DNA from: a virus | Strand: one strand, 5' to 3' | IMG/VR virus record: IMGVR_UViG_3300027857_000024 | Coordinates: 1-51,600 of that record | Length of the DNA stretch: 51,600 bases | Translations under genes and position numbers: made by a program | Shown: in pieces, positions 26,049 to 47,604 of the stretch | Layout: every line of letters begins with the position of its first letter | How positions within the stretch are numbered: the stretch's first letter is position 1 | Notes under the pieces: model-generated | The model's database searches: none | Seen by the model: only the letters and a program-made list of their open reading frames with translations | What the model was told of the DNA's origin: nothing

Positions 26049-26091
26049 TTTTATCCTTGACCTGCGTGCCACCGATTAAGGTGTCTGCGCG

Positions 26092-33399: not shown

Positions 33400-33474
33400 T
33401 GGTTGGAGGCGAAGGACTCGAACCTTCACCGACACTTTCAGAGAGTGCCGTGCTACCGATTACACTAGCTTCCA
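33400..33474 (-). tRNA. tRNA-Gln(CTG)
   Basis: Cloverleaf with acceptor TGGAAGC/GCCTCCA (one A-C mismatch at pair 5-68), anticodon stem GCACT/AGTGT, loop CTCTGAA, T arm GAAGG/CCTTC, and encoded 3' ACCA. Reads CAG codons. Last tRNA of the array before the terminator. Confidence 0.9.
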
Positions 33475-33573
33475 ACAGAAATAAAAGTCGTCCCCTCTAG
33501 GGCGATGGGGTCCTTTTCCTTCAAGGATTGCGTCTAGCCGCTTTCTTGAAGTACCTGACCGACGACACGAGAT

Positions 33574-33648
33574 TGGTTGGCGGACTAGGATTCGAACCTA
33601 GATAGACGGATTCAAAGTCCGTCGTCCTACCGATTAAACGATCTGCCA
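33574..33648 (-). tRNA. tRNA-Gln(TTG)
   Basis: Anticodon arm ACGGA-CTTTGAA-TCCGT reads CAA. Acceptor TGGCAGA/TCCGCCA has the same A5-C68 mismatch as the Gln(CTG) gene, so the pair probably arose by duplication. CCA encoded. Confidence 0.9.
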
Positions 33649-33657
33649 ACAGAAAAT

Positions 33658-33732
33658 TGGTCCTGCACCGTGGAATCGAACCACGCACGCCTGCGGTTTC
33701 AACACAGCGCTCTACCAATGAGCTAGAGCAGG
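33658..33732 (-). tRNA. tRNA-Phe(GAA)
   Basis: Anticodon arm CTGTG-TTGAAAC-CGCAG, D stem GCTC/GAGC, T arm CGTGG/CCACG, discriminator A and encoded CCA. The 5' end lies one nucleotide from the CCA of the next gene upstream. Confidence 0.9.
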
Positions 33733-33733
33733 A

Positions 33734-33820
33734 TGGAGGAAGAGAACTGAATTGAACAGTTACCCGTTTCCGGGTAGCACGGTGTTCGAAACCGTTTGCA
33801 GGCCGTCTGCGCTGTCTTCC
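33734..33820 (-). tRNA. tRNA-Ser(CGA)
   Basis: Class II tRNA with long variable arm (TACCCG/CGGGTA), anticodon arm ACGGT-TTCGAAC-ACCGT, T loop TTCAATT and encoded CCA. Reads TCG. Confidence 0.88.
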
Positions 33821-33954
33821 GAAACTCTTAAATTCTTTCTGGCTTTTCTGCCTCTGCCATTATTCAAACTACAGTATGTCTTCAAGATCGCGGTTGGCTT
33901 CTTCGGGGAGCATGGGCTCCATGGAAGCAATATCGATATCGGGGATACTCATAT

Positions 33955-34040
33955 TTTGCCGATCTTTTTGCCGCTCTAAGTCCAATTGATTGAAAGTACT
34001 ATATAACAAAACCCCTCTAGATTTGCCGATCTTTTTGCCG
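33955..34040. repeat. 19-nt direct repeat pair
   Basis: TTTGCCGATCTTTTTGCCG occurs at 33955-33973 and 34022-34040, separated by 48 nt. Probably a replication-slippage or recombination scar inside a small gene region. Confidence 0.8.
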
Positions 34041-34125
34041 ATGTTAAAGCACAATGCTCATCACAATAAGATTTTCTATCTACTCGGCCTTCTAGTTCTT
34101 TGCCACAGTTCTTACAAACTTTCAT
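33976..34125 (-). CDS. Small zinc-ribbon protein (49 aa)
   Basis: MKVCKNCGKELEGRVDRKSY then CDEHCALTSAK: CxxC plus CxxHC, a compact zinc-binding motif. GCGGAGAG precedes the ATG. The C-terminal quarter overlaps a 19-nt direct repeat (34022-34040 and 33955-33973), so the gene end may have been altered by a repeat-mediated rearrangement. Lies in the gap between tRNA-Ser(CGA) and tRNA-Ser(TGA). Confidence 0.5.
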   Translation of the reverse strand: MKVCKNCGKELEGRVDRKSYCDEHCALTSAKRSANLEGFCYIVLSINWT

Positions 34126-34189
34126 TGGACTCTCCGCAATAGAGTGGCCGGGGGTGATTGCGGCACCCCCAACCGATGTAGCTACAAAC

Positions 34190-34274
34190 TGGAGGAAGAA
34201 TGACGACTCGAACGCCCTACCTCTCGGTAGTCTCCGGGTTCAAACCGGATTGCCCGCCACGGGCGAAATCTTCC
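34190..34274 (-). tRNA. tRNA-Ser(TGA)
   Basis: Class II tRNA, anticodon arm TCCGG-TTTGAAC-CCGGA, variable arm CTACC/GGTAG, acceptor GGAAGA/TCTTCC shared with Ser(CGA), encoded CCA. Reads TCA. Confidence 0.85.
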
Positions 34275-34283
34275 TTTGAAAAT

Positions 34284-34370
34284 TGGCGGATGAGAGAGGA
34301 CTTGAACCTCTACAACCTTTTGAGTTGCGAGTTTAGCAAACTCGTGCGTCTACCGTTTCGCCACCCATCC
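34284..34370 (-). tRNA. tRNA-Ser(GCT)
   Basis: Class II tRNA, acceptor GGATGGG/CTCATCC, anticodon arm CGAGT-TTGCTAA-ACTCG, variable arm CAAC/GTTG, discriminator G and encoded CCA. Reads AGC/AGT. Confidence 0.9.
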
Positions 34371-34378
34371 GTAAAAAT

Positions 34379-34471
34379 TTACTTAATGATTTTCTTCGCG
34401 AGTTGAAAGCCGATTCCGAATAAGAATCCGAAAACCAACATCAACACAAAAGCTGCTGCCGTCAAAAGCAT
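34379..34471 (-). CDS. Tiny single-span membrane peptide (30 aa)
   Basis: MLLTAAAFVLMLVFGFLFGI then GFQLAKKIIK: one hydrophobic helix with a basic C-terminus. GAGG lies about 10 nt before the ATG. It follows the secreted protease gene and may act in the inner membrane. Function unknown. Confidence 0.5.
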   Translation of the reverse strand: MLLTAAAFVLMLVFGFLFGIGFQLAKKIIK

Positions 34472-34488
34472 GGGATTCTTACCTCGCT

Positions 34489-35226
34489 TTACTCGCTTTG
34501 TTCGTTTTTTGATTCGGCCTTTACTGCGTGACCTGCTTTCGCGTAATAGCTTTGAATCGATGGCGAGGGAACAACGACCACGCCGTTTTCAAAAACGTGT
34601 CCTTCTAAAATTCCGATTACTTTCCCGGTGCGCTCGCTAATGATCGGAGAGCCGCTTGCTCCGGGTCCGCCGCCTGTTTGCACCAAAATTCGACCAATAC
34701 AAATGTCGCACGGGTCGTGAGGGTCGGCGATACTTTGAAGAATGTTGCTTCCGACTCGACCTGTGTAAACTGCTTGTCCGACAATCTCCGGATATCCTAC
34801 ATAAAAAACTCTATCGTCAATCTTCGCTAGCTTGTCATCTAGTTCGAGGATTGGATATTTCTTCTCGGTCTTCAAATGGAGTTCTGCCACATCTATCTTG
34901 CCATCGTCGATGTAATTCAAAACCTCGACTGGTTGAAGAACCGGATTATCCACCGCTTGTCCATCGGCTACTAAATAGATCGCATCGCTTGGTGCGCCGC
35001 CATCAGCAAAACAATGTCCCGCGGTCATCAAGTAGTATCCGTCTTCCGCTTTCTTATAAACGAATGCCGTACAAAGCGGAGTGTGATCTACTCTTCGTTC
35101 CACAGAGCGTCCGTACAAAACGAACGTGGACTTCATCGCTATCTGATGCTTTTTATTTACTGCACCCATCGGCTGAGTAGCTAAAATCAAACATGCCGCC
35201 AACAATAATCCGCGAAGAACCTTCAT
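34489..35226 (-). CDS. Secreted trypsin-like serine protease (245 aa)
   Basis: N-terminal signal peptide (MKVLRGLLLAACLILATQ, cleavage likely near A22). Chymotrypsin-fold triad: H71 in LMTAGHCF, D112 in KIDVAELHL, and S191 in GGGPGASGSPI. Cys pairs C52/C72 and C173/C176 could form disulfides. The protein should be exported to the periplasm, where it may cleave envelope or host defence proteins or process phage proteins. GGAGAAGCAAC precedes the ATG. Its setting inside a tRNA array is unusual. Confidence 0.85.
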   Translation of the reverse strand: MKVLRGLLLAACLILATQPMGAVNKKHQIAMKSTFVLYGRSVERRVDHTPLCTAFVYKKAEDGYYLMTAGHCFADGGAPSDAIYLVADGQAVDNPVLQPVEVLNYIDDGKIDVAELHLKTEKKYPILELDDKLAKIDDRVFYVGYPEIVGQAVYTGRVGSNILQSIADPHDPCDICIGRILVQTGGGPGASGSPIISERTGKVIGILEGHVFENGVVVVPSPSIQSYYAKAGHAVKAESKNEQSE

Positions 35227-35310
35227 GTTGCTTCTCCGTGGACGGCCCTTGACAGAGCACCACCGTTCACACGCTGTTCCCGATTGGGGGACCCTCTGTT
35301 CAGCGTAAGC

Positions 35311-35727
35311 TTATACACCCAGCATTTTGCTGAGTTGTGCAACGCGCGACTTCGCTCTTTCCAGATCGCCACTCGCTGCTTTGAAACCATGATCGGGCTG
35401 AAAACCGTTCAGCCATTTGCACATCATCTTGCCCCACAACTTTCCTTCTTGTTGGGCGCGCCACGAGTGCGTCGAAATCGTTTCATCTTGCTGGCCGCGA
35501 AGAACAATCACATTGAACGCGATATCGAAAGCCACGAGCATGCGATGAAGCCAGCCCTCTTGAGAGGCCCGCTGCTCTTGCACCAGAACTTGAGAAGAAC
35601 TCCACACAGGCGATCTGCCTGCGATCATCGAGCGAATAGTCGCCATCATGAACGAGATCGCAAGAAGTCCCGCAATCGTTGCGCCAGCAATTTCACCTGT
35701 CAGCAACAGCTTATGGAGTACGTCCAT
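35311..35727 (-). CDS. Membrane protein, lysis or hypothetical (138 aa)
   Basis: One hydrophobic span near the N-terminus (EIAGATIAGLLAISFMMATI), then a soluble part with RGQQDETISTHSWRAQQEG and a Trp-rich KLWGKMMCKWLNGFQPDHG. This latter block recurs in phage proteins of unknown function. AGGTGA precedes the ATG. An endolysin role is not supported by visible catalytic motifs. Confidence 0.65.
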   Translation of the reverse strand: MDVLHKLLLTGEIAGATIAGLLAISFMMATIRSMIAGRSPVWSSSQVLVQEQRASQEGWLHRMLVAFDIAFNVIVLRGQQDETISTHSWRAQQEGKLWGKMMCKWLNGFQPDHGFKAASGDLERAKSRVAQLSKMLGV

Positions 35728-35740
35728 AGTTCACCTAAAT

Positions 35741-35814
35741 TGGCAGGCCGCGTAGGAATTGAACCCACTCTCGCCGGGTTGGAGCCGGATGTGCTACCGT
35801 AACACTTGCAACCT
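35741..35814 (-). tRNA. tRNA-Trp(CCA)
   Basis: A1-T72 acceptor AGGTTGC/GCGGCCT, anticodon arm CCGG-CTCCAAC-CCGG, discriminator G and encoded CCA, as in bacterial Trp tRNAs. Confidence 0.88.
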
Positions 35815-35823
35815 GTAGAAAAT

Positions 35824-35911
35824 TGGTGGATGATGAAGGACTCGAACCTTCGAAGCCCGCAAGGGGCGGCTGGTTTACAGCCAGCAGTAATTGCCGCTAT
35901 ACGAACCATCC
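35824..35911 (-). tRNA. tRNA-Tyr(GTA)
   Basis: Class II tRNA, acceptor GGATGGT/ATCATCC, anticodon arm GCTGG-CTGTAAA-CCAGC, long variable arm, discriminator A and encoded CCA. Confidence 0.9.
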
Positions 35912-35919
35912 ACGAAAAT

Positions 35920-35993
35920 TGGAGCACCGCACAGGAATCGAACCTATGCTTCGGCCTTACGAGGGGCGCGTCCTGCCACTGGACCAGCAGTGC
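35920..35993 (-). tRNA. tRNA-Thr(CGT)
   Basis: Acceptor GCACTGC/GCGGTGC, D stem GTCC/GGAC, anticodon loop CTCGTAA with one mismatch in the stem, T loop TTCGATT, encoded CCA. Reads ACG. Confidence 0.8.
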
Positions 35994-36100
35994 TCAAAAA
36001 TTATTTGTGTTTGCTCTGAACCACAGAGATTACCGCGCCTTGCAACCCGGCAGTCTAGGACTGGTTGGAGTCGGCGAAGGACTTGACGCGACACAAAACT

Positions 36101-36174
36101 TGGAGCGAAGTGCGGGAGTCGAACCCGCGCCCGAACCTTGGCAAGGTCCAGTTCTACCGTTAAACTAACCACGC
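36101..36174 (-). tRNA. tRNA-Gly(GCC)
   Basis: Anticodon arm GGACC-TTGCCAA-GGTTC, T arm GCGGG/CCCGC, discriminator T and encoded CCA, as in E. coli Gly tRNA. The acceptor has one T-T mismatch. Reads GGC/GGT. Confidence 0.88.
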
Positions 36175-36181
36175 TCGGAAA

Positions 36182-36262
36182 TCATCCGCCTTTTTTCTTG
36201 AACATGCAGTAAATCACTACTGCCGAAAGAATAAAACCTAAGACGGTAGCTACCGTTACCAT
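36182..36262 (-). CDS. Tiny single-span membrane peptide (26 aa)
   Basis: MVTVATVLGFILSAVVIYCM then FKKKGG: a hydrophobic helix with a Lys-rich end. GAGGAT lies just before the ATG. It sits between two tRNA genes. Similar in layout to the 30-aa peptide at 34379. Function unknown. Confidence 0.5.
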   Translation of the reverse strand: MVTVATVLGFILSAVVIYCMFKKKGG

Positions 36263-36275
36263 ATATCCTCAAAAT

Positions 36276-36350
36276 TGGAGCAGCGACTGTGAATCGAACA
36301 CAGGCGTTCGCATTACAAGTGCGACATCATAACCACTAGATCATCACTGC
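36276..36350 (-). tRNA. tRNA-Thr(TGT)
   Basis: Acceptor GCAGTGA/TCGCTGC, anticodon arm TCGCA-CTTGTAA-TGCGA, T loop TTCGATT, discriminator T and encoded CCA. Reads ACA. Confidence 0.88.
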
Positions 36351-36357
36351 TCAAAAC

Positions 36358-36431
36358 TGGAGCCGAAGGCAGGAATCGGACCTGCGCTTGTTCTTTACCA
36401 AAGAACTGTTCTACCACTATACTACATCGAC
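36358..36431 (-). tRNA. tRNA-Thr(GGT)
   Basis: Anticodon arm GTTCT-TTGGTAA-AGAAC, T loop TCCGATT (C instead of T at position 55), encoded CCA. Reads ACC/ACT. Confidence 0.85.
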
Positions 36432-36443
36432 TCAGAAATTTGT

Positions 36444-36881
36444 TTAAGCGTGATCGCCTTTGTCACCCTTGTCACCCTTGTCGCCTTTATCGCCCTTGTC
36501 GCCCTTCAATCCTTGCGCGCCATCCTTGCCGTTTGCGCCATCGTTTCCGTGGGCACCGTCGCGACCGGGGTTGCCATCTTTGCCGTCATTACCGTGGGCA
36601 CCATCGGCACCATTATCGCCTTTGTCGCCCTTCAAACCGTGTTCACCATTATTGCCGCTGTCGCCTTTGTCTCCCTTGTCACCTTTTCCACCTAAGACTC
36701 CTGCGTCGCCTTTCAAGCCTTGCGGGCCTGCGGCACCTGCGGGACCAACGGCTCCACGAGGACCAACCGGACCTGCTACGCCTGCGGGACCTTGTGCGCC
36801 TTTCTTCACAAAACCAAAAACTAGTGCGGCTGCGGAAACTCCTAATGCAACAAAAGAAACTAACTCTGCGGGGGCAATCAT
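36444..36881 (-). CDS. Membrane-anchored collagen-like protein (145 aa)
   Basis: N-terminal hydrophobic helix (ELVSFVALGVSAAALVFGFV) followed by uninterrupted Gly-X-Y triplets to residue ~143. It starts GPAGVAGPVGPRG and changes to charged KGD/NGA triplets (KGDKGDKGDSG). Such triplets form a collagen triple helix. Collagen repeats are known in phage tail fibres, but here the N-terminal helix points to a membrane-anchored rod. GAGGAGATACTG precedes the ATG. Role unknown; surface exclusion or host-surface change is a guess. Confidence 0.85.
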   Translation of the reverse strand: MIAPAELVSFVALGVSAAALVFGFVKKGAQGPAGVAGPVGPRGAVGPAGAAGPQGLKGDAGVLGGKGDKGDKGDSGNNGEHGLKGDKGDNGADGAHGNDGKDGNPGRDGAHGNDGANGKDGAQGLKGDKGDKGDKGDKGDKGDHA

Positions 36882-36911
36882 CAGTATCTCCTCATTTAAC
36901 TTCTACAAAAC

Positions 36912-36985
36912 TGGAGCGGCGTCACGGACTCGAACCGAGACGAGCAGTTTGGAAAACTGCGATGCTACCATTACATCAACACCGC
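36912..36985 (-). tRNA. tRNA-Gly(TCC)
   Basis: Acceptor GCGGTGT/ACGCCGC, anticodon arm GCAGT-TTTCCAA-ACTGC, discriminator T and encoded CCA. Reads GGA/GGG. Confidence 0.9.
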
Positions 36986-36994
36986 TTTGAAAAT

Positions 36995-37083
36995 TGGTTG
37001 CAGGGGTGGGATTCGGACCCACGGTGTGCTTTCGCATCGGGCTTATGAGACCCGCGATATCGGCCAGCCTAATCGACCCTACA
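36995..37083 (-). tRNA. tRNA with CAT anticodon (Met or lysidine Ile2), with class II variable arm
   Basis: Acceptor TGTAGGG/CCCTGCA, anticodon arm CGGGT-CTCATAA-GCCCG, T loop TCCGAAT (T55C), encoded CCA. T1-A72 pairing and the T-G closing pair of the anticodon stem argue against an initiator. The variable region of ~15 nt can form TGC-GAAA-GCA, unusual for a CAT tRNA. Whether it carries Met or, after lysidine modification, Ile cannot be told from sequence. Confidence 0.8.
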
Positions 37084-37092
37084 ATTGAAAAA

Positions 37093-37167
37093 TGGTACCC
37101 AGGGTTTGAATCGAACAAACGACCTCTCCCTTATCAGAGGAGCATTCTACCACTGAACTACCCGGAT
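37093..37167 (-). tRNA. tRNA-Ile(GAT)
   Basis: Acceptor ATCCGGG/CCTGGGT, anticodon arm CTCCT-CTGATAA-GGGAG, T loop TTCGATT, discriminator A and encoded CCA. Confidence 0.9.
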
Positions 37168-37174
37168 ACAAAAA

Positions 37175-37525
37175 TCATTTACGTGCTAGATACTCCATCC
37201 ACTCATCATCCCGCTGCTTACGCTCGTTCCAGCGCTCGATGATTTCATTTTGTGTCATCCACGTTGGACTACACACATAAGCGAACGGATTATCGTACTG
37301 CTGACTTCTCTCACAAAGACGCTGATTTCCATCGCGGCCCCATGAGTACACTTCATTAAAACTTGCTTCCAAGCGTTTTGGAATGACTAGGTCTTCCCAG
37401 TCACGGCAATCTCGGATTGCCTGTTCCTGCACTCTGCGCCAGCATCGACGAGCGATTAACTTGTCGTACTTCGCACTACGCGTACCAGTGACGGCGGCGT
37501 AAGGCTTACGATATGACTTTCCCAT
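37175..37525 (-). CDS. Conserved-looking basic phage protein (116 aa)
   Basis: MGKSYRKPYAAVTGTRSAKY, then helical Arg/Trp-rich sequence (CWRRVQEQAIRDCRDWEDL) and RDGNQRLCERSQQYDNPF. Basic, soluble and probably nucleic-acid-associated; the KRPYAAVTGTRSA-type opening recurs in phage small proteins near tRNA genes. Strong GGAGGG before the ATG. Function unknown. Confidence 0.7.
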   Translation of the reverse strand: MGKSYRKPYAAVTGTRSAKYDKLIARRCWRRVQEQAIRDCRDWEDLVIPKRLEASFNEVYSWGRDGNQRLCERSQQYDNPFAYVCSPTWMTQNEIIERWNERKQRDDEWMEYLARK

Positions 37526-37583
37526 TATAACCCTCCGGTTACCTAATGTGGAATTGTAACTGTCATATCACTCTCCTATAAAT

Positions 37584-37659
37584 TGGTGGACCGTGCCGGA
37601 TTCGAACCCGCGACTCTTCGGTGCAAACGAAGCGTTTTGCCAGTTATCACTAACAGCCC
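37584..37659 (-). tRNA. tRNA-Ala(TGC)
   Basis: Anticodon arm CTTCG-TTTGCAC-CGAAG, T arm GCGGG with TTCGAAT loop, discriminator A and encoded CCA. Acceptor GGGCTGT/ACGGTCC pairs throughout using G-T. Reads GCA/GCG. Confidence 0.87.
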
Positions 37660-37668
37660 ACTGAAAAT

Positions 37669-37744
37669 TGGTAGCGTCGGCGGGATTTGAACCCGCGTTC
37701 TTGGCTTGAAAGGCCAGCGTCCTAAGCCTCTAGACGACATCGCC
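37669..37744 (-). tRNA. tRNA-Glu(TTC)
   Basis: D arm TCGTCTAGAGG as in bacterial Glu tRNAs, anticodon arm TGGC-CTTTCAA-GCCA, T arm GCGGG/CCCGC, encoded CCA. The acceptor has one A-A mismatch. Confidence 0.88.
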
Positions 37745-37754
37745 ACTGAAACTT

Positions 37755-38114
37755 TTACAAAGGTTTTATAATATCGTAAGCTCGGTGGTCCGTAACTTGG
37801 TACCCCTCGTATCTTGCGAAAAATTTTTCAGGGTCTTCATCTTTTCCTACCTGAAAAACCTCTCCGATATCCAACTTGAAATCCTCAATCAACTTATCGC
37901 CAACTTGTTTCTTAATTGGTCGAAGTCTCCCGATGTTCAAAACAATCGGCTTCCCAAGAAGTTCGCCACTATTTTTTCGTTTCAAATACAAATGGGCCGT
38001 GCCGTCCTTGAAAACATAAATAGCCCAAGAAGGTTCAAATTTTTTATCAGTCGGAAAAATGTAAGTTCCGTCTTCCTGTTCTTGAACTTCTATCAAACCG
38101 TCATTTGTAATCAT
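37755..38114 (-). CDS. Hypothetical protein (119 aa)
   Basis: Mixed alpha/beta soluble protein: a beta-rich N-terminal half (GTYIFPTDKKFEPSWAIYVF, GTAHLYLKRKNSG) and a charged C-terminal half (FKLDIGEVFQVGKDEDPEKF). GGAGAGTAAC precedes the ATG. Lies between two Glu tRNA genes. No family recognised. Confidence 0.65.
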   Translation of the reverse strand: MITNDGLIEVQEQEDGTYIFPTDKKFEPSWAIYVFKDGTAHLYLKRKNSGELLGKPIVLNIGRLRPIKKQVGDKLIEDFKLDIGEVFQVGKDEDPEKFFARYEGYQVTDHRAYDIIKPL

Positions 38115-38163
38115 GTTACTCTCCGTTGCTCATCGAGCATTTACTCTACGGTACTTCAAAACT

Positions 38164-38237
38164 TGGTCGCCCTGCGGGGTATCGAACCCCGGTTAATTGG
38201 TTGAGAACCAATCCTCTTGCCATTAAAGGACAAGGCG
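38164..38237 (-). tRNA. tRNA-Glu(CTC)
   Basis: Acceptor CGCCTTG/CAGGGCG, anticodon arm ATTGG-TTCTCAA-CCAAT, T arm GGGG/CCCC, discriminator A and encoded CCA. Reads GAG. C1-G72 is unusual for a Glu tRNA. Confidence 0.85.
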
Positions 38238-38245
38238 ATTTAAAA

Positions 38246-38332
38246 TGGTCCGGCCTGTCTCGTCGCTGTGGGCTTAGAGAGGGGCGCATCCCGTGCCGCA
38301 TACACGGCTAACTCACGAGGTAACTCGGCCAG
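38246..38332 (-). ncRNA. tRNA-like degenerate element
   Basis: 87 nt, the length of a class II tRNA. Ends pair (CTGGCC/GGCCGG) and are followed by ACCA. A 5-bp, 7-nt-loop arm CCGTG-TATGCGG-CACGG lies where the anticodon arm would be, but position 33 is A and no standard T arm (TTCGA) follows. Probably a decayed tRNA or a tRNA-like RNA. Spacing to neighbours is like that of the real tRNAs. Confidence 0.35.
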
Positions 38333-38340
38333 ATAGAAAA

Positions 38341-38414
38341 TGGTCGACCGTGGCAGAATCGAACTGCCATCGAGCCCTTATAAGGAGGCCATCCTACCAT
38401 TGAACGAACGGTCA
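38341..38414 (-). tRNA. tRNA-Ile(TAT)
   Basis: Acceptor TGACCGT/ACGGTCG, anticodon loop CTTATAA in a stem with one C-C mismatch, T loop TTCGATT, discriminator A and encoded CCA. Reads ATA. Confidence 0.8.
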
Positions 38415-38419
38415 ACTGA

Positions 38420-38632
38420 AAGGCTGGGACATCGCGGAATTTCACCACTCATCTACAGGCAGTCGCGACTGCGCTGTAGAGCCGAGCGTTGCTCGGGACG
38501 GCCCACAGAAATTGGTGAGTCGGGCTAGTTGACCAACATTTCAGTTGGGGCCTTAGAGGATTACCGCCCCCTTGGCTCGCGTGCGTACTCACGCGCTCAC
38601 CTCTATCGAGTAGAGGCTTACCGCTCATAGAA
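38420..38632 (-). ncRNA. Structured non-coding stretch between tRNA-Val and tRNA-Ile
   Basis: No ORF with a ribosome site. Several strong hairpins: CCTCTA/TAGAGG, CGCGTG/CACGCG, CTACAG/CTGTAG and CCAAC/GTTGG with a TGAAAT loop; the same loop recurs in GTGG/CCGC. A 38515-38632 sub-element ends in CTCACCA and its ends can pair as TGAG-CGG/CCG-A-CTCA. Perhaps one or two small RNAs or decayed tRNAs. Identity unknown. Confidence 0.35.
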
Positions 38633-38635
38633 AAT

Positions 38636-38711
38636 TGGTAGCCCGTAACAGAATCGAACTGTTCCGGCCTCTTTGTAGGAGAGGTGCATACAACCAGTTT
38701 GCTAACAGGCT
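38636..38711 (-). tRNA. tRNA-Val(TAC)
   Basis: Acceptor AGCCTGT/ACGGGCT, anticodon stem CCTCT/AGAGG with loop CCTACAA, T loop TTCGATT, encoded CCA. The loop has C instead of the nearly universal T at position 33. Reads GTA. Confidence 0.82.
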
Positions 38712-38716
38712 AAAAT

Positions 38717-38792
38717 TGGTGGACCGCTCGCGGCTCGAACGCGAACTCATGGGCTTAAAAGGCCCCGCTACTGCCTCTCGTATTCGCAGTCC
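38717..38792 (-). tRNA. tRNA-Lys(TTT)
   Basis: Acceptor GGACTGC/GCGGTCC, anticodon arm GGGC-CTTTTAA-GCCC, T loop TTCGAGC, discriminator A and encoded CCA. Confidence 0.88.
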
Positions 38793-38801
38793 ACAGAAAT
38801 T

Positions 38802-38877
38802 TGGTGGGTTGCGCGGGACTTGAACCCGCAACTCGCTCCTTAAGAGGGAGGAATGTTGCCGCTAACACCTGCGACCC
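38802..38877 (-). tRNA. tRNA-Lys(CTT)
   Basis: Acceptor GGGTCGC/GCAACCC (one mismatch), anticodon arm CTCC-CTCTTAA-GGAG, T arm GCGGG/CCCGC, discriminator A and encoded CCA. Confidence 0.88.
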
Positions 38878-38951
38878 ACGTTACCGTACGGGAATATCGT
38901 GGCCGTGTTAATTATCATGGCCGTGTTATGTTCCCGCTCGGGAGTAAAAAT

Positions 38952-39241
38952 TGGTTGCGCTGTAGCCCGGTTTCTGTCTAGGACGAACATTCATCTTAGC
39001 CTGCTACCCGACTCTCGTCGCGCTCAACAAGCGCTCAAGTCCTATTTGCAGTTGCACCTGTGTGGAGTGCCCGACCTCGAATTGATTACGTCGGCCTTAC
39101 CCGTGCGCTCGCGCGCCCCGCAACTTCCACGGCACAGTGTTGAGTTGTGACCGGAACTTCCTCGACCTCCGACGCTTTAGTGTATCACACGCTTGCGCGC
39201 TCGTTACCTTCTCGTCAGTGCCGCGTTCGTCTACGCTACCA
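38952..39241 (-). ncRNA. rnpB: RNase P RNA, shortened form
   Basis: Catalytic RNA that trims tRNA 5' leaders. The minus strand holds the conserved bacterial elements in order: P1 TGGTAGCGT pairing with GCGCAACCA at the 3' end (one A-A mismatch), P2 GACGAA/TTCGTC, the P4 5' strand in GAGGAAGTTCCGGT (39150-39163), CAAATAGG (39041-39048), CGGGTAG (the loop that pairs with tRNA CCA), AGATGAATG (38988-38996), and ACAGAAACCGGGCT (38964-38977). P4 pairs AGT-CCGGT with ACCGGGCT around a bulged T, with a G-to-T/C-to-A compensatory change from E. coli. The specificity domain is about 100 nt against about 180 nt in E. coli. It lies inside the tRNA array, 62 nt from tRNA-Lys and 75 nt from tRNA-Cys. Confidence 0.92.
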
Positions 39242-39316
39242 AAAGGCGCAGTTTGGTTTTCGTTACCATGCTGCCAGAAACGACTCGCGGTAATCCCTGC
39301 CGGGACCGGAGAAAAT

Positions 39317-39390
39317 TGGAGCACTGTGTTGGAATCGAACCAACGATGACTGTTTTGCAGACAGGTAGCTTACCACTTGCCTAACAGTGC
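39317..39390 (-). tRNA. tRNA-Cys(GCA)
   Basis: Perfect acceptor GCACTGT/ACAGTGC, anticodon arm CCTGT-CTGCAAA-ACAGT, T arm GTTGG/CCAAC, discriminator T and encoded CCA. Confidence 0.92.
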
Positions 39391-39472
39391 AAACTCAGTC
39401 CACGCCCGAGTAACATTAAGGTGACAGCGGCTTACGTGGTTACGCCTCTGACCAGTTTACTCAGTACAAGCT

Positions 39473-39560
39473 TGGTGCGCTAGGTGGGAGTCGAACCCAC
39501 AATGCCTGTGAGGGCCGTGAGGGTTTAAGCCCCACGCGTATACCGTTCCGCCACACGCGC
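39473..39560 (-). tRNA. tRNA-Leu(TAA)
   Basis: Class II tRNA, anticodon arm TGGGG-CTTAAAC-CCTCA, long variable arm, D loop with AACGGTA, T arm GTGGG/CCCAC, discriminator A and encoded CCA. The acceptor has two inner mismatches. Reads TTA. Confidence 0.85.
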
Positions 39561-39565
39561 AAAAT

Positions 39566-39650
39566 TGGTCGGCCACGAAGGATTTGAACCTTCACGCCAC
39601 TAGGACGCTCGCTCTTGAGGCGAGTGTGTCTGCCGTTCCACCAGTAGCCG
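39566..39650 (-). tRNA. tRNA-Leu(CAA)
   Basis: Class II tRNA, acceptor CGGCTAC/GTGGCCG, anticodon arm CTCGC-CTCAAGA-GCGAG, discriminator A and encoded CCA. The reading frame of the upstream HNH gene runs through most of this tRNA and stops at 39592. Confidence 0.9.
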
Positions 39651-40125
39651 ATAAACTCTTATTCTTTCCTCTGCCTGCAAAATCATCCGTTTGCGAATGG
39701 CAGTTAGGGCACTCGAAATGTAGATTCATTCTCTCATTATTCAATGAGTCACCGTCCTTGTGACTTATTTGCAGTACGAGTTCTCTGCCGTTCCACACAG
39801 GACTGATGCCGCAAGTACCGCAAACATGCGCAATTCCCGAATCAATCATTGCTCTTCTTAGTCGTGCCGTTGCTTCCTTACGGTTGTTGTTTCTGTTGTT
39901 TACTAAAATCTTTTGCCAATGAATTCTACCGGGCTTATGTTCGATACCTCGGTTTCTGGTGCTACCTAAAAAATGCGATGTATCAATTCCAAACTTTTTA
40001 ATTCTTCTCGAAACGTGCTGTTGAGTGCCGCCGTTCGGATTCTTTAATCCTAGTTTTCTGGTAACTTCTGCAACACTTAAACTCGACTCGACAACAGGCG
40101 TTAAAGACTCCTTAGTGTATTTCAC
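39592..40125 (-). CDS. HNH homing-type endonuclease ending inside tRNA-Leu (177 aa)
   Basis: GTG start at 40125, overlapping the TGA of the 62-aa ORF (GTGA). The N-terminal half is a helix-turn-helix-like DNA-binding segment (SLSVAEVTRKLGLKNPNGGT, VSRRIKKFGIDTSHF). The nuclease part has CGTCGISPVW, LQISHKDGDSLNNERMNLHF with the catalytic His and Asn, and FECPNCHSQT. The natural end is probably near RGKNK; the last ~20 codons are read through tRNA-Leu(CAA). A truncated tRNA-Leu 5' half lies upstream (40369-40402), pointing to insertion into a tRNA-Leu locus. Confidence 0.85.
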   Translation of the reverse strand: MKYTKESLTPVVESSLSVAEVTRKLGLKNPNGGTQQHVSRRIKKFGIDTSHFLGSTRNRGIEHKPGRIHWQKILVNNRNNNRKEATARLRRAMIDSGIAHVCGTCGISPVWNGRELVLQISHKDGDSLNNERMNLHFECPNCHSQTDDFAGRGKNKSLSATGGTADTLASRASVLVA

Positions 40126-40310
40126 TGAGCACCGGAGCGAGGACGAACCTCCAATCTCATACGTTCTCTGGAAGACGCTATATCCACCCACGGAGCAGAA
40201 AAACCTGCCTTCTCTATGGCTCTTACCGTCTTAAGTAGTGCATCAAGTTCGAGATGATACTGACTCATCAACTGCCCGATTTGCTGCGCTTCCGCTGTGC
40301 TGTAGTTCAT
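40122..40310 (-). CDS. Small helical protein coupled to the HNH gene (62 aa)
   Basis: MNYSTAEAQQIGQLMSQYHL then ELDALLKTVRAIEKAG: a helical protein with a basic C-terminus. Strong GAGGAAGG before the ATG. Its TGA overlaps the GTG of the HNH gene, so both are probably one cassette. Function unknown. Confidence 0.65.
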   Translation of the reverse strand: MNYSTAEAQQIGQLMSQYHLELDALLKTVRAIEKAGFSAPWVDIASSRERMRLEVRPRSGAQ

Positions 40311-40368
40311 TTTTCCTTCCTCTTGTGGTCACATAGTGACTAAGGAATTTTACACATAAACTTGGGGA

Positions 40369-40402
40369 CAATCCAGCGCGTCTGCCATTCCACCAGCAGG
40401 GC
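40369..40402 (-). pseudogene. tRNA-Leu 5' half (truncated)
   Basis: The minus strand reads GCCCTGC-TG-GTGGAATGGCAGAC then GCTGG, matching the acceptor strand and D arm of bacterial Leu tRNAs and of the intact Leu(CAA) gene (CTGGTGGAACGGCAGAC). The sequence diverges within the anticodon stem, and no 3' half is next to it. The HNH cassette follows. Confidence 0.7.
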
Positions 40403-40408
40403 AAAAAT

Positions 40409-40484
40409 TGGAAGGCCACCGGGGAGTCCAACCCCGCTCTCAACGTTCGTAGCGTTGCGCATTATGCGATATACGAGCAGCCCT
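40409..40484 (-). tRNA. tRNA-Arg(ACG), atypical
   Basis: Perfect anticodon arm CAACG-CTACGAA-CGTTG and T stem CGGGG/CCCCG, encoded CCA. T loop is TTGGACT (G at 56) and the D loop has GC instead of GG at 18-19, restoring a C19-G56 pair. The acceptor pairs poorly (about three mismatches), so functionality is uncertain. Confidence 0.7.
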
Positions 40485-40542
40485 CAAAACTTTTCGGTGC
40501 CCCGAGGTGCTAGCAATATGCCTCGATATGTGCACCGAATAT

Positions 40543-40617
40543 TGGAAGCCCCACTCGGAATCCAACCGAGATAAGCGCCTTAGAAGTGCGCCGTCCTGTG
40601 CATTGAACGACAGGGCC
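40543..40617 (-). tRNA. tRNA-Arg(TCT), atypical
   Basis: Acceptor GGCCCTG/TGGGGCT (with G-T pairs), D stem GTTC/GGAC, anticodon loop CTTCTAA, T arm CTCGG/CCGAG with loop TTGGATT (G56). D loop AATGCACA has C at 19. Encoded CCA. Reads AGA. Confidence 0.82.
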
Positions 40618-40624
40618 ACAAAAT

Positions 40625-40709
40625 TGGTACCCGAGGTGGGACTTGGACCCACAATCTCTTTCGAGCGACGCGGTCTAAACGCGTTACGTATGCATTCCGC
40701 CACTCGGGT
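40625..40709 (-). tRNA. tRNA-Leu(TAG)
   Basis: Class II tRNA, perfect acceptor ACCCGAG/CTCGGGT, anticodon arm ACGCG-TTTAGAC-CGCGT, variable arm, T loop TCCAAGT (T55C), encoded CCA. Reads CTA. Confidence 0.9.
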
Positions 40710-40737
40710 ACAGAAAATTAAATGCCGATATTTCTAT

Positions 40738-40834
40738 GAACGCCTCGGCTTTACGCGGACTTGAACCGCGAGGGCGCTCTTCTGCTCGCTGGTGTTTCAT
40801 GCGAGACTTAAATCCGGGCGATATTTATCAACGC
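40738..40834 (-). ncRNA. tRNA-like element with perfect T arm
   Basis: T-arm-like hairpin CGCGG-TTCAAGT-CCGCG (40759-40775), flanked by a long closing stem CGCC-CGG-A-TTTA/TAAA-G-CCG-A-GGCG. There is no D arm and the central arm CTCGC/GCGAG has an 11-nt loop. No CCA follows. Either a decayed tRNA or the tRNA-like end of the structured RNA just upstream. Confidence 0.4.
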
Positions 40835-41180
40835 GCGTCGCCGTCGCGCTTTGGGTGTTCTAAGAACACCGAGAGTAGTTGCCCCTTACCAGTCGACGAG
40901 GCCAATCACCGGGAGCTACCCGGGAGTGTTTCACTCTCTGTTGCAACATCTTTTGCCCGCCGCGAAGAACAACGTCGCAACGCTTTTGTCGGCAGCGTGT
41001 CCTCGATGTTTAGTCGAGTACCTTGTAAGCCTCAGCAAACTCTATGTGGTAGGCGCGCGTTCGTCGCCTCGTTCAAGTCCGTTAGCGCCCGCTGGGTATC
41101 GGCACGCGCTCTCCCGGGAGGGAGTGCCTTGCCGACCCCATTTCGGGAATCGTCTGTGGATTTACCTAACGGCTCCACAA
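40835..41180 (-). ncRNA. Large structured non-coding region, unidentified
   Basis: About 345 nt without a credible ORF, lying between tRNA-Pro and the tRNA-like element. On the minus strand there are strong nested pairings: CCGTTAG/CTAACGG enclosing TCGGCA/TGCCGA and CTCCC/GGGAG; CTCGA/TCGAG; TTGCGACG-type and TTGCAAC segments; and GGTGTTC/GAACACC with a 3-nt loop. Length and branching fit a structured RNA; no group I intron core or tmRNA tag was recognised. Confidence 0.5.
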
Positions 41181-41184
41181 AAAT

Positions 41185-41272
41185 TGGTCGGGCTGGCAGG
41201 AATTGAACCTGCAAGGTCATAGACACTCCCTTCCGAAGGGAGACCGCTGCCAGATTACGGAACTACAACCCG
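41185..41272 (-). tRNA. tRNA-Pro(CGG)
   Basis: Acceptor CGGGTTG/CAGCCCG, anticodon arm CTCCC-TTCGGAA-GGGAG, T arm GCAGG/CCTGC, discriminator A and encoded CCA. The variable region is about 13 nt, longer than the usual 4-5. Confidence 0.85.
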
Positions 41273-41280
41273 ATTAAAAT

Positions 41281-41356
41281 TGGCTGTGGACCTCAGATTC
41301 GAACTGAGACCCTTCCCATTAACAGTGGGACGTACTACCAGTTATACTAATCCACA
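41281..41356 (-). tRNA. tRNA-Asn(GTT)
   Basis: Acceptor TGTGGAT/GTCCACA, anticodon arm TCCCA-CTGTTAA-TGGGA, T arm CTCAG/CTGAG, discriminator G and encoded CCA. The stop codon of the upstream HNH gene (41347) lies within its first ten nucleotides. Confidence 0.9.
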
Positions 41357-41793
41357 GCAGAAACTTTCTTTGCGTGATTCTGTCGAGTGTCTTTCTCTCG
41401 ACGGCACGCCTTACAATAGTCATCCAATCCATCGTCCTTGCAACTTCTTGCAAAGAACTCATTGACTGATAAAGCTCTTTGATGTTTCGAACACCACGCC
41501 GTTCCTTCTGGCGTTTGAATCTTTGAACTGCCTAAACGATGCGGTCTATTGCATCGCATGTGGGAAAATGAAATATTATTCAAATCCCAAAATAGCGCAG
41601 CGCTTATTCCTTCCCACGGCTCTATGTGCTCAACACTTAATTCTTCGACCGATGAAATTGTTGCCCTGCATCTATAACAGACGTTCTCTCCTAGACGATA
41701 CAAAAGAGAAAACATAATATTTTTTCTCAATCTGTTTGACGCCGTGCCGTGAGACATACCTAGCGTTGCATTTTTCTTCTCGTTGCTTGACAT
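41347..41793 (-). CDS. HNH endonuclease overlapping tRNA-Asn (148 aa)
   Basis: HNH motif CYRCRATISS, LSVEHIEPWEGISAALFWDL, NNISFSHMRCNRPHR: Cys pair, catalytic His in EHI, Asn pair, second Cys. A second zinc module follows (WCSKHQRALSVNEF, DDYCKACRREKD), like that seen in group I intron and free-standing phage HNH proteins. GGGAGG precedes the ATG. The last codons and the stop are inside the 5' end of tRNA-Asn, the same arrangement as the HNH gene at 39592. Confidence 0.88.
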   Translation of the reverse strand: MSSNEKKNATLGMSHGTASNRLRKNIMFSLLYRLGENVCYRCRATISSVEELSVEHIEPWEGISAALFWDLNNISFSHMRCNRPHRLGSSKIQTPEGTAWCSKHQRALSVNEFFARSCKDDGLDDYCKACRREKDTRQNHAKKVSAVD

Positions 41794-41830
41794 AATCGTT
41801 GACCTCCCGGTCGTTGATTAAATCCTAAAT

Positions 41831-41908
41831 TGGCAGTCCCGACGAGATTTGAACTCGCGGTCTTCTCCGTGACAGGGAGACGGCCACTCCGGGCTGGCCC
41901 ACGAGACT
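41831..41908 (-). tRNA. tRNA-Asp(GTC)
   Basis: Acceptor AGTCTCG/CGGGACT, D stem GGCC/GGCC, anticodon arm TCTCC-CTGTCAC-GGAGA, discriminator G (typical of Asp) and encoded CCA. Confidence 0.9.
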
Positions 41909-41910
41909 GT

Positions 41911-42020
41911 AGAAAATTTGAGGACGATGCTTCTCTCGTTCCTCGCTTATGCGCTATCGTCACCGTTACCAGCGTCGACTCGCGGAAGCCATTGGTACCC
42001 TCACCCTAAGTGGTCGGGTA
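41911..42020. other. Non-coding gap with hairpins
   Basis: No ORF with a ribosome site. Contains GACGAT/ATCGTC and TACCA/TGGTA pairings. Possibly a small RNA or spacer; nothing recognisable. Confidence 0.3.
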
Positions 42021-42024
42021 AACT

Positions 42025-42113
42025 TGGTCGAGATGGAAGGATTTGAACCTCCAAGGCGTTGCCGCACTGGTTTCCAAAACCAGACCGCTGCCAGATTACG
42101 GACCTACACCTCG
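42025..42113 (-). tRNA. tRNA-Pro(TGG) with extended variable arm
   Basis: Acceptor CGAGGTG/CATCTCG, anticodon arm CTGGT-TTTGGAA-ACCAG, T loop TTCAAAT, encoded CCA. The variable region is ~14 nt and forms GCG-GCAA-CGC, a class II-like arm not normal for Pro. D arm is nearly identical to Pro(CGG). Confidence 0.87.
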
Positions 42114-42275
42114 ACTGAAAATTGTATGACGGTTGGCCCAACGCTCCGTCAAGGCGGTTGTGATAACCCATGAGCCTTGTTCACAACAAGCATCTTTTGT
42201 CAGTTCGGTCGGGAGTTCCGTTTCCGGATTCTCGCTTCCGCCGAAGGATAGCGAGTACTCACCTCTGACAAACTC
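42114..42275. other. Non-coding gap of 160 nt with hairpins
   Basis: No supported gene. On the minus strand CTCGC/GCGAG around a TTCGGCGG loop region and GTTGTG/CACAAC can pair, so a structured spacer RNA is possible. Nothing recognised. Confidence 0.3.
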
Positions 42276-42461
42276 TTAAACTTTTCGATGTTCGAGCGGC
42301 GTCATGTCCAACGTCGTCTCGGTTCCGCATCCTTCACAGACATATCGATGGCCGGGTCTTCGACTCATGTTTCCGCCGCACTCGGGACACTCAAGACTTC
42401 TTGGCGGGATGCCGACTCCGTTCTTTGCCGGAATCCACATCTCTGTCTCTCGCGTCTCCAT
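42276..42461 (-). CDS. Zinc-ribbon protein (61 aa)
   Basis: METRETEMWIPAKNGVGIPP, then LECPECGGNMSRRPGHRYVC and EGCGTETT: two CxxC pairs 16 residues apart, a classic zinc ribbon. Its own promoter (TTGACA-17-TAGGAT) ends 9 nt before the ATG. Possibly a transcription or RNA-associated accessory protein; no family assigned. Confidence 0.75.
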   Translation of the reverse strand: METRETEMWIPAKNGVGIPPRSLECPECGGNMSRRPGHRYVCEGCGTETTLDMTPLEHRKV

Positions 42462-42470
42462 CGTGGAACC

Positions 42471-42499
42471 ATCCTACCATAACTTCGAAAACCTGTCAA
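42471..42499 (-). promoter_or_regulatory. Sigma-70 promoter for the zinc-ribbon gene
   Basis: TTGACA (42499-42494), 17-nt spacer, TAGGAT (42476-42471). The predicted start leaves only about 3 nt before the ATG at 42461. Confidence 0.75.
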
Positions 42500-42520
42500 G
42501 CACTATTTTCAACTATTTTT

Positions 42521-42597
42521 TGGGGTGAAGTATGGGGGTCGAACCCATGCTGCCGGATTCACAGTCCAGCGTGCTACCACTACACCAACGACACCAC
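42521..42597 (-). tRNA. tRNA-His(GTG)
   Basis: Anticodon arm CTGGA-CTGTGAA-TCCGG, T arm ATGGG, C73 as in His tRNAs, encoded CCA. The nucleotide before G1 is T, not the usual encoded G-1. First tRNA read from the promoter at 42612-42640. Confidence 0.87.
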
Positions 42598-45721: not shown

Positions 45722-47143
45722 ATGGACACCACACTTAAGACGTACCGAGTTCCCGAGTCCAACTTAGAAGTTCTCAAATCCCGAATGGTGAAGCTGGTCC
45801 GTCGCTGTGCGCGCATCAAAGTCGATGCACCTGTGCTGACGGTTGGCTCATTCGAGGAGATCACGTATAAAAACGATGCGGGATTTGATCGCGTTCGCCG
45901 CGTATACACTGTCACGCTGGAATCTGCAGGCCGTCCCAAGATCAACGGTTACGAGTTTGCTGCTGTCATTTCACCTGTCACTGATGAAGACGGCAAACTG
46001 ATCGGCAACGTCATGCGCCGCGTTCCCGGATTCGAAGGTGATATCCCTCAGCGCTTCCGCGATGCCACCAACTACTGCGACCACTGCAAGACAGATCGTC
46101 GACGGCTGGAAACTTTTGTGATAGCCAATGCAGATGGATACAGGCAAATCGGTCGCAACTGCCTCGCGAATTATCTTGGACTCACGAACCCGGAGACGCT
46201 CGCGGCCATCGCCGAGATTCTGATTGATGCTGATGAATTGGCTGGAATGGCTGAAGAGAGCGATGGATTCGGTGGCGGTCGCGTGATGGAGCGCATTCCG
46301 ATGGACGACGTGCTCACAGTCGCCGCGTCCGCCATCAGACTGTACGGATGGCTCTCCAATAAGTCTGCAATGGAATTTGGCAAGACCTCGACCAGCATGC
46401 GCGTACGTGAGTGGATATACGGCAACGCCAAGACCAGAGAGGCATTTGAGTTTCCTCTCACAGCGACCGAAGAAGACAAGACCCTCGCGAATAACACCTA
46501 CGAATGGCTGCAATCGCTTTCTATTCACACTCAAGACGATTACCGATACAACCTCGCGCTGCTAGCACAATCCATATCAGTGAGCAGCAAGAATTTTGGC
46601 GTCGCAGTTTCCGCAATCAATGCGTACTCGAAGGAAAAGGAATTCGAGATCAGGCGGAACGCGCGCATCGAGGCAGACAGCAAATCGGAATTCATCGGCG
46701 TAGTTGGCGAGCGCATCACAATCGAGAATGCGACCGTGTTGTACACCACAACATTTGAATCGCAGTTTGGCGTCTCACACTTTTACAAGATGAAGGCAGG
46801 TGACAATATCCTCGTGTACTTCGCGTCCACCCAGATGTTCGAACAAGGTGAAGTCATTCCTCGAATGACAGCACGCGTCAAGAAGCACGAGAATCGCGTG
46901 GACAAGTACAATCCGGAAGGCGTGAAGCAAACCGTTATTACGCGTGCTACGCTGCCGAAGCCAGAGCCGACCGAGGAACAGAAGGCAGCCAAGAAGGTAA
47001 TCGCGAAGCTTCGCAGGGTCGCGAAGACGCTGCCACACACTGCGGAAGATCAGCGCAATGGCATAGGTGACTATAACGACTATCAAGCATGGGTAGAAGT
47101 GAATGACTTAATCTGGCAGATTGAAAGAGAGGCGAAACTATAA
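45722..47143 (+). CDS. Large conserved-type phage early protein with Cys motif (473 aa)
   Basis: The N-terminal domain (RVPESNLEVLKSRMVKLVRR) is followed at about 115-150 by YCDHCKTDRRRLETFVI and QIGRNCLANYLGL: a CxxC plus later Cys, a zinc module that recurs in phage early proteins of unknown function. The middle is helical, and the C-terminal part (ITIENATVLYTTTFESQFG, DNILVYFAST) looks like an OB or beta-barrel fold. A DNA-associated role is possible. The ATG is 6 nt after the -10, with no ribosome site, so the mRNA is probably leaderless. The last base of its stop is shared with the ATG of the SprT gene. Confidence 0.8.
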   Translation: MDTTLKTYRVPESNLEVLKSRMVKLVRRCARIKVDAPVLTVGSFEEITYKNDAGFDRVRRVYTVTLESAGRPKINGYEFAAVISPVTDEDGKLIGNVMRRVPGFEGDIPQRFRDATNYCDHCKTDRRRLETFVIANADGYRQIGRNCLANYLGLTNPETLAAIAEILIDADELAGMAEESDGFGGGRVMERIPMDDVLTVAASAIRLYGWLSNKSAMEFGKTSTSMRVREWIYGNAKTREAFEFPLTATEEDKTLANNTYEWLQSLSIHTQDDYRYNLALLAQSISVSSKNFGVAVSAINAYSKEKEFEIRRNARIEADSKSEFIGVVGERITIENATVLYTTTFESQFGVSHFYKMKAGDNILVYFASTQMFEQGEVIPRMTARVKKHENRVDKYNPEGVKQTVITRATLPKPEPTEEQKAAKKVIAKLRRVAKTLPHTAEDQRNGIGDYNDYQAWVEVNDLIWQIEREAKL

Positions 47144-47604
47144 TGGAACTGACGGCAGCATTCCGAATAATCTGGAAGGCGATGGTAGACCATAAGCTGT
47201 TTGACAAGGGCTGGTCGTTTCAATGGGACAACGCGAAGTCACGCTGCGGTCAATGCCGATTCGAAGGCCGAATAATCACGATTAGTCGACATTACGCCGC
47301 CGTGAACGATGAAGCGAATATTCGTGACACCATCTTGCACGAGATCGCGCACGCGCTGGTTGGACCCGGCCACCATCATGATTGGGTTTGGCAATCGATG
47401 GCGCGGCAGATCGGCGCAAGGCCAGAGCGCTGCGCTACCACCGATGCGCAAGTGAGAGGGAATTACATCGGGCAGTGTGTAGGGTGCAATAAAGAGATAC
47501 ACAGGTACCGCAGGCCGCGATATCTCGACATTCCGGGATTCTACTCCCATACCGCGTGCAAGCGCGCTGGAAAGCCATCAGATATCAAATGGACGCGTGC
47601 TTAG
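47143..47604 (+). CDS. SprT-like zinc metalloprotein (153 aa)
   Basis: SprT/Spartan-type fold: HEIAH at 66-70 (TILHEIAHALVGPGHHHDWV), with a third His in the GHHHD motif (77-79) and the following WQSMARQIGA helix, then a C-terminal zinc-ribbon-like part (CVGCNKEIHRYRRPRY, TACKRAG). Spartan proteases cut DNA-protein crosslinks; phage members are widespread but their substrates are unknown. It overlaps the previous gene (TAATG). Its TAG stop begins the AGTACT box set of promoter 2. Confidence 0.88.
   Translation: MELTAAFRIIWKAMVDHKLFDKGWSFQWDNAKSRCGQCRFEGRIITISRHYAAVNDEANIRDTILHEIAHALVGPGHHHDWVWQSMARQIGARPERCATTDAQVRGNYIGQCVGCNKEIHRYRRPRYLDIPGFYSHTACKRAGKPSDIKWTRA

Follow-up and report, generated by a model that had tools for sequence, protein, structure and literature searches.

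The window, a stretch of 51,600 nucleotides (positions 1 to 51,600 of the IMG/VR virus record IMGVR_UViG_3300027857_000024), carries genes for a large terminase (26114–28423, minus strand; phrog_38, E = 1.4e-43) and a portal protein (23940–26072, minus strand; phrog_1216, E = 3.2e-24), and the contig is therefore assigned to a tailed phage. An array of tRNA genes occupies 33400–42594, all on the minus strand and all encoding the 3′ CCA. The initial annotation had counted 33 genes in this array; the array is present, but the count is 30 with ARAGORN and 25 with Rfam. The tRNA spacers are often only 5–9 nt long and an AUUUUC-like sequence stands directly after the CCA, 14 of the 30 trailers starting with AUUUU; it is possibly a processing signal. 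Genes for a trypsin-like protease (34489–35226, minus strand), a collagen-repeat protein (36444–36881, minus strand) and a SprT-like protein (47143–47604, plus strand) lie between or near the tRNAs.

An RNase P RNA gene of about 294 nt, with a class A core and a reduced specificity domain, is located inside this array at 38949–39242 on the minus strand, where the ARAGORN predictions tRNA-Cys(GCA) (39317–39390) and tRNA-Lys(CUU) (38802–38877), both also on the minus strand, are its 5′ and 3′ neighbours. We observed by cmscan a complete class A RNase P RNA (RF00010, 84.3 bits, E = 3.3e-26), the match itself spanning 38947–39242 and model positions 1–367 of 367. RF00010 was the best of the clan models on the window, and the archaeal RF00373 was not better. 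The comparison with Rfam models that had been proposed as a check thus gave a significant match, at a score that, owing to the shortness of the RNA, falls under the RF00010 gathering threshold of 100 bits, and the gene is not listed there. Such sub-threshold scores may be the reason why phage genes of this kind stay unannotated. A chance match is excluded, since the window reaches 121.1 bits (E = 3.1e-30) with model R1, which was built from phage relatives and not from the window itself. Artefact and host contamination were considered as sources of the window RNA and rejected. Minimum-energy folding of the RNA alone, a procedure that ignores the P4 and P6 pseudoknots, was no better than that of shuffled sequences (z = −0.83). 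The spacer between the RNA and tRNA-Lys (38880–38945) has an inverted repeat and repeats an element like ACGGCCATGATAATTAACACGGCC; at another locus, L079, the RNA is followed by a similar ATGGCCATGATAATTAA.

The helices of the catalytic core were located on the minus strand as follows. P1, which ends at 39242 and about 38949, pairs UUGGUAGCGU (39233–39242) with GCGCAACCAA (38951–38960). The 5′ strand of P4, AGU-U-CCGGU (39150–39158), carries a bulged U at 39155, equivalent to E. coli U69, and its 3′ strand, ACCGGGCU (38964–38971), was placed by alignment and covariation. The P6 pseudoknot joins UCAACA of J5/7 (39138–39143) to UGUUGA of L17 (39024–39029). Together with P15, P16 and P17, this pseudoknot is a hallmark of type A. 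J5/15 reads GCAA (39052–39055) and contains the equivalents of A248 and A249, and L15 reads CGGGU (39006–39010) with the GGU that pairs with the 3′ RCC of tRNAs. Class A features are thus found in the P4 with its bulged U built from conserved regions I and V, in P6 with P15–P17, and in the L15 GGU and J5/15 adenines.

We then examined pairing in an alignment (A5) of 31 sequences, window included, made with one alignment program and covering P1–P11, P15–P17 and the P4 and P6 pseudoknots. Standard pairs filled 94.3% of 2116 cells, against 72.4% in shuffles and 34–40% when partners were slid by 1–3 columns, and changes on both sides occurred in 58 of the 69 pairs. Contrasts with shuffles are inflated by related sequences, a weakness from which the slid controls and the comparisons between sister phages are free. 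In 12 relatives without the window, with the P12 stem included, 96.4% of cells were paired and 48 of 72 pairs covaried. P4 was paired in 100% of cells with covariation at six of its eight pairs, P6 covaried at all six, and P15, P16 and P17 were paired in 100%, 96% and 93% of cells, respectively. Pairing in this RNA family is under purifying selection. All 31 sequences have the bulged U of P4, both J5/15 adenines and the L15 GGU; the positions of substrate contact and of the metal site are invariant. All the modelled helices form in the window too, P11 (CCGAC/GUCGG) being misplaced by the aligner in A5 yet present by sequence. The pairings P1, P2 and P4 on which the initial annotation relied are clearly kept by the homologues, and P3, P5–P11 and P15–P17 can be added to them; the compensatory change that it had noticed in P4 is real, AGU(U)/GCU in the window replacing the AAG(U)/CUU of bacteria.

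At the 3′ end of the RNA, the 3′ strand of P1 contains NCCA, which ends this strand in 30 of 31 members of the family, the inner pairs of P1 being variable. CCA is also encoded by the tRNAs of the NCCA-bearing phages; in Zooman, a cultured phage described below, and in G005, a 190.7-kb tRNA-rich viral contig, the RNA has no CCA and only 1 of 10 and 1 of 8 neighbouring tRNAs, respectively, encode it. The phage RNA may thus be matured at its 3′ end in the manner of a tRNA.

The specificity domain of the window RNA runs from P7 to P7′ (39058–39137). It keeps P7, P8 with GUGGAAGUUGC (GUGGAAGYUGC in the family), P9 with a GNRA-type loop, P10 and a 5-bp P11, and P7–P11 covary. P13 and P14 are gone from the whole family, and the window is also devoid of a P12 stem and of P18, so that the complete domain of P7–P14 with J11/12–J12/11 is not present in the phage RNAs. 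Most members have a variable P12 stem, with an asymmetric loop of conserved sequence, UA / CAUUCRAG, between it and P11; in the window, the P11 hairpin CCGAC/GUCGG (39071–39094) closes the loop GUAAUCAAUUCGAG alone in place of this stem. Among the members read, only L080 and L115 show a near-bacterial J11/12–J12/11 pattern (ACAG...GUGAAAC or ACAG...AUGAAAC), and intermediates therefore exist. The reduction is visible in length: GAGGAA and AATAGG are 116 nt apart in the window versus 191 nt in L009, a class A RNA of full length, and P4 and CAAATAGG are separated by about 102 nt, in agreement with the 100 nt or so given before. The earlier statement that most of the specificity domain is missing holds for its reduction, with the loss of P13, P14 and the P12 stem of the window, but goes too far for P7–P11, which are kept and covary. 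The deletion does not imply the relaxed leader recognition that had been suggested, since the parts that touch the substrate are largely kept: substrate positions of the catalytic domain are invariant and P9–P11 are present.

Compared with bacterial class A RNA (RF00010), the phage RNAs share P1–P6 and P15–P17, the order of conserved regions, the bulged U of P4, the L15 GGU, the J5/15 GCAA and P7–P11. They differ in being phage-encoded and shorter (as a rule about 255–350 nt), in the absence of P13/P14 and mostly of P18, in their P4 (AGU/GCU) and P8/L8 (GUGGAAGYUGC), and, for most of them, in the UA/CAUUCRAG loop that replaces J11/12–J12/11. Archaeal type A RNAs are likewise without P13/P14 and P18 (PMC4919922), but the bacterial class A model fits the window better and archaeal RNAs work with four or more proteins. 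In Pyrobaculum, nearly the whole specificity domain was lost from the RNase P RNA (PMC4919922); this minimal type P/T RNA is another natural reduction, whereas the phage RNAs keep a covarying P7–P11. As these archaeal and Pyrobaculum RNAs lack such parts and yet count as RNase P RNA, we limit the claim to a reduced class A variant.

Relatives of the window RNA were sought with a DNA pattern combining conserved region I and the phage-type P8, derived from the window and the first relatives. It matched 52 IMG/VR stretches, about 40 of which display the full RNase P motif order. Model R1, a covariance model restricted to conserved region I to J5/15 and built from 12 relatives with the window left out, found the window and 35 other phage loci, and gave only about 30 bits to a full-length class A RNA (L060) and to a host-like stretch (L248). 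On RF00010, eight relatives scored 85–132 bits, three of them above 100. In G005, a 207-nt RNase P RNA-like gene (L066, 1501–1707; 118.5 bits) is apparently without P12 to P15, including the CAAAUAGG region, and may reflect additional reduction, decay of the copy or a gap in the assembly. An apparently identical full-length class A RNA of 247 bits occurs in a 372-kb (G001, L060) and a 497-kb (G008, L061) viral contig; a search for 16S rRNA gave no match in either, and a huge-phage RNase P RNA of ordinary size and bacterial contamination are both possible.

Four cultured Microbacterium foliorum phages, among them Zooman, Big4 and A3Wally, have a more divergent form of 214–221 nt inside their tRNA arrays, and it is unannotated in all four records. 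Three of the four match RF00010 with 51–72 bits (E = 5e-16 to 5e-23), and the RNAs are 85–99.5% identical to that of Zooman. Every change in P1–P6 among these phages keeps the pairing, with double changes in P3, P4, P5 and P6. P4 varies as a set, AGU(U)CCGGG/CCCGGGCU in Zooman versus AAG(U)CCGGG/CCCGGCUU in A3Wally. Genes with the annotations ADP-ribosyltransferase and RtcB-like RNA ligase also lie in the tRNA region of Zooman (L002, 7436–9361); close to the RNase P RNA, they may constitute a module for tRNA repair or defence.

Could the gene be a functionless host copy, passively acquired, or an assembly chimera? Some viral contigs do contain RNase P RNAs that are full-length and host-like (L059–L064, L248), but forms specific to phages are common to about 40 contigs and four cultured genomes, the DNA pattern gave no true member in bacterial and archaeal genomes among the matches listed, and the pervasive compensatory evolution contradicts such an origin, which we consider hardly conceivable. 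The reduced form is not a trait of the phylum Acidobacteria, since the RNase P RNAs of the acidobacterial hosts read (L263, L266) are canonical and full-size (about 460–500 nt). A search of 297 acidobacterial genomes, in which the first look scored few candidates per genome, yielded only a single weak match, which looks like an ordinary RNase P RNA of full length. The nearest cultured terminase to that of the window belongs to the acidobacterial phage Tunturi_3 (27% identity), and no RNase P RNA was found in the Tunturi_3 genome. By homology and fold, the gene encodes an RNase P RNA, of a reduced type that is confined to phages as far as tested. Two further candidates were set aside: a blastn match in Acinetobacter phage MD-2021a, which is probably host rnpB since coaD and a gene for a ferredoxin share its host-like stretch, and short megablast matches of the window region to phage records, mostly of mycobacteriophages, which fall under tail-gene annotations away from the RNA.

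The RNA gene was missed in every phage annotation that we read, cultured phages included. We found no published account of a phage-encoded RNase P RNA in the open-access literature, and RNase P goes unmentioned in the main text of the 2020 huge-phage survey.

The position of the gene bears on its substrate. In 36 loci (the family, Zooman and G005), all 533 of the 533 tRNA genes within 3 kb share the strand of the RNA, and co-transcription with these neighbours is therefore likely. In terminase-related records, which are fragments of genomes, the RNA was present in 6 of 6 with 21–27 tRNAs versus 0 of 5 with 2–9 tRNAs, a correlation that is supportive rather than proof. Nine cultured phages with large genomes or many tRNAs, searched with somewhat stricter filters, gave no such RNA (KVP40, XacN1, CcrColossus, G, Atu_ph07, Jay2Jay, RaK2, PhiW-14 and Aeh1), so a tRNA array does not require it. 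The same-strand clusters and short spacers resemble those of other phage tRNA arrays (T4, mycobacteriophages, KVP40); in T4, however, tRNAs are processed by the host RNase P (PMC11143913), and the nine phages above have no RNA of their own. In the window, U is the commonest base at N(−1) of the tRNAs (18 of 30). This base is preferred by RNase P. The CCA encoded in all 30 is the partner of the L15 GGU.

An RNase P of altered specificity, aimed mainly at other phage RNAs such as mRNAs or tRNA-like elements and not at tRNAs, could be imagined from a specificity domain without P13 and P14 and with a new conserved J11/12 loop, the bacterial enzyme having non-tRNA substrates as well (PMC4919922). 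We nevertheless find it very improbable, as the RNA lies inside tRNA arrays and on the tRNA strand at all loci, its presence correlates with tRNA number, and the GGU is retained for the CCA that every tRNA of the window encodes.

The protein partner was also examined. RnpA (PF00825) was not detected in 21 phage records, including the complete genomes of Zooman and Big4, by a search that found it in 10 of 14 control genomes; a very divergent RnpA could escape it and most contigs are fragments. With no RnpA gene in these records, the host would have to supply the protein. Bacterial type A RNase P RNAs are catalytic in vitro without protein at high Mg2+, and this, with the missing RnpA gene, could point to an enzyme that acts as bare RNA or has a so far unrecognised phage protein as its partner. 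To be efficient, however, the bacterial enzyme needs both subunits, and RnpA proteins are interchangeable between species (PMC4919922); the infected cell contains host RnpA, and we regard independence from it as unlikely. The same lack of phage RnpA in the tested records, together with the reduced specificity domain, could suit a decoy, a non-catalytic mimic that would compete with the host RNase P RNA for RnpA, soaking up this protein or pre-tRNAs and shutting down host RNase P. Such a decoy would have no need of the P4 bulged U, the L15 GGU and the J5/15 adenines, all kept in 31 of 31 sequences, or of a fully paired and covarying P4, and the shutdown would harm the phage's own tRNAs, among which the RNA sits. 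This is improbable too, if a little less so than an enzyme aimed away from tRNAs.

The most probable reading, to which we give good though not full confidence, is that of a class A RNase P RNA encoded by the phage and active as a ribozyme, transcribed together with the tRNAs and using host RnpA on phage pre-tRNAs. The Rfam consensus shows high conservation of the P4 pairs adjoining the bulged U, and these differ in the phage RNA, which counts against this reading. According to this scheme, the RNA would probably be transcribed within the phage tRNA operon, adopt the normal fold of an RNase P catalytic core, its specificity domain being trimmed, and borrow host RnpA to form a hybrid holoenzyme that would remove the short leaders of the phage's own pre-tRNAs. 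The benefit would be that tRNA maturation continues while phage tRNAs are being made by the dozen and host RNase P RNA is perhaps limiting or lost. A bolder and rather doubtful extension is to see in the phage RNAs a separate subclass of RNase P with a rebuilt specificity domain, where the UA/CAUUCRAG loop between P11 and a variable or absent P12 replaces J11/12–J12/11 and P13/P14; with the altered P4 and P8, the enzyme might be tuned to phage pre-tRNAs and compete with host RNase P for the shared RnpA during infection.

RNase P RNA is among the few ribozymes kept almost everywhere in life. A tRNA-maturation ribozyme of their own would extend the take-over of translation by phages from tRNAs to the enzyme that matures them. 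The family also amounts to an evolution experiment, in which P4, the most conserved helix of RNase P, changes by paired substitutions between sister phages, and in which the specificity domain is seen shrinking. Since the gene is carried by cultured M. foliorum phages, its function is open to direct testing at the bench.
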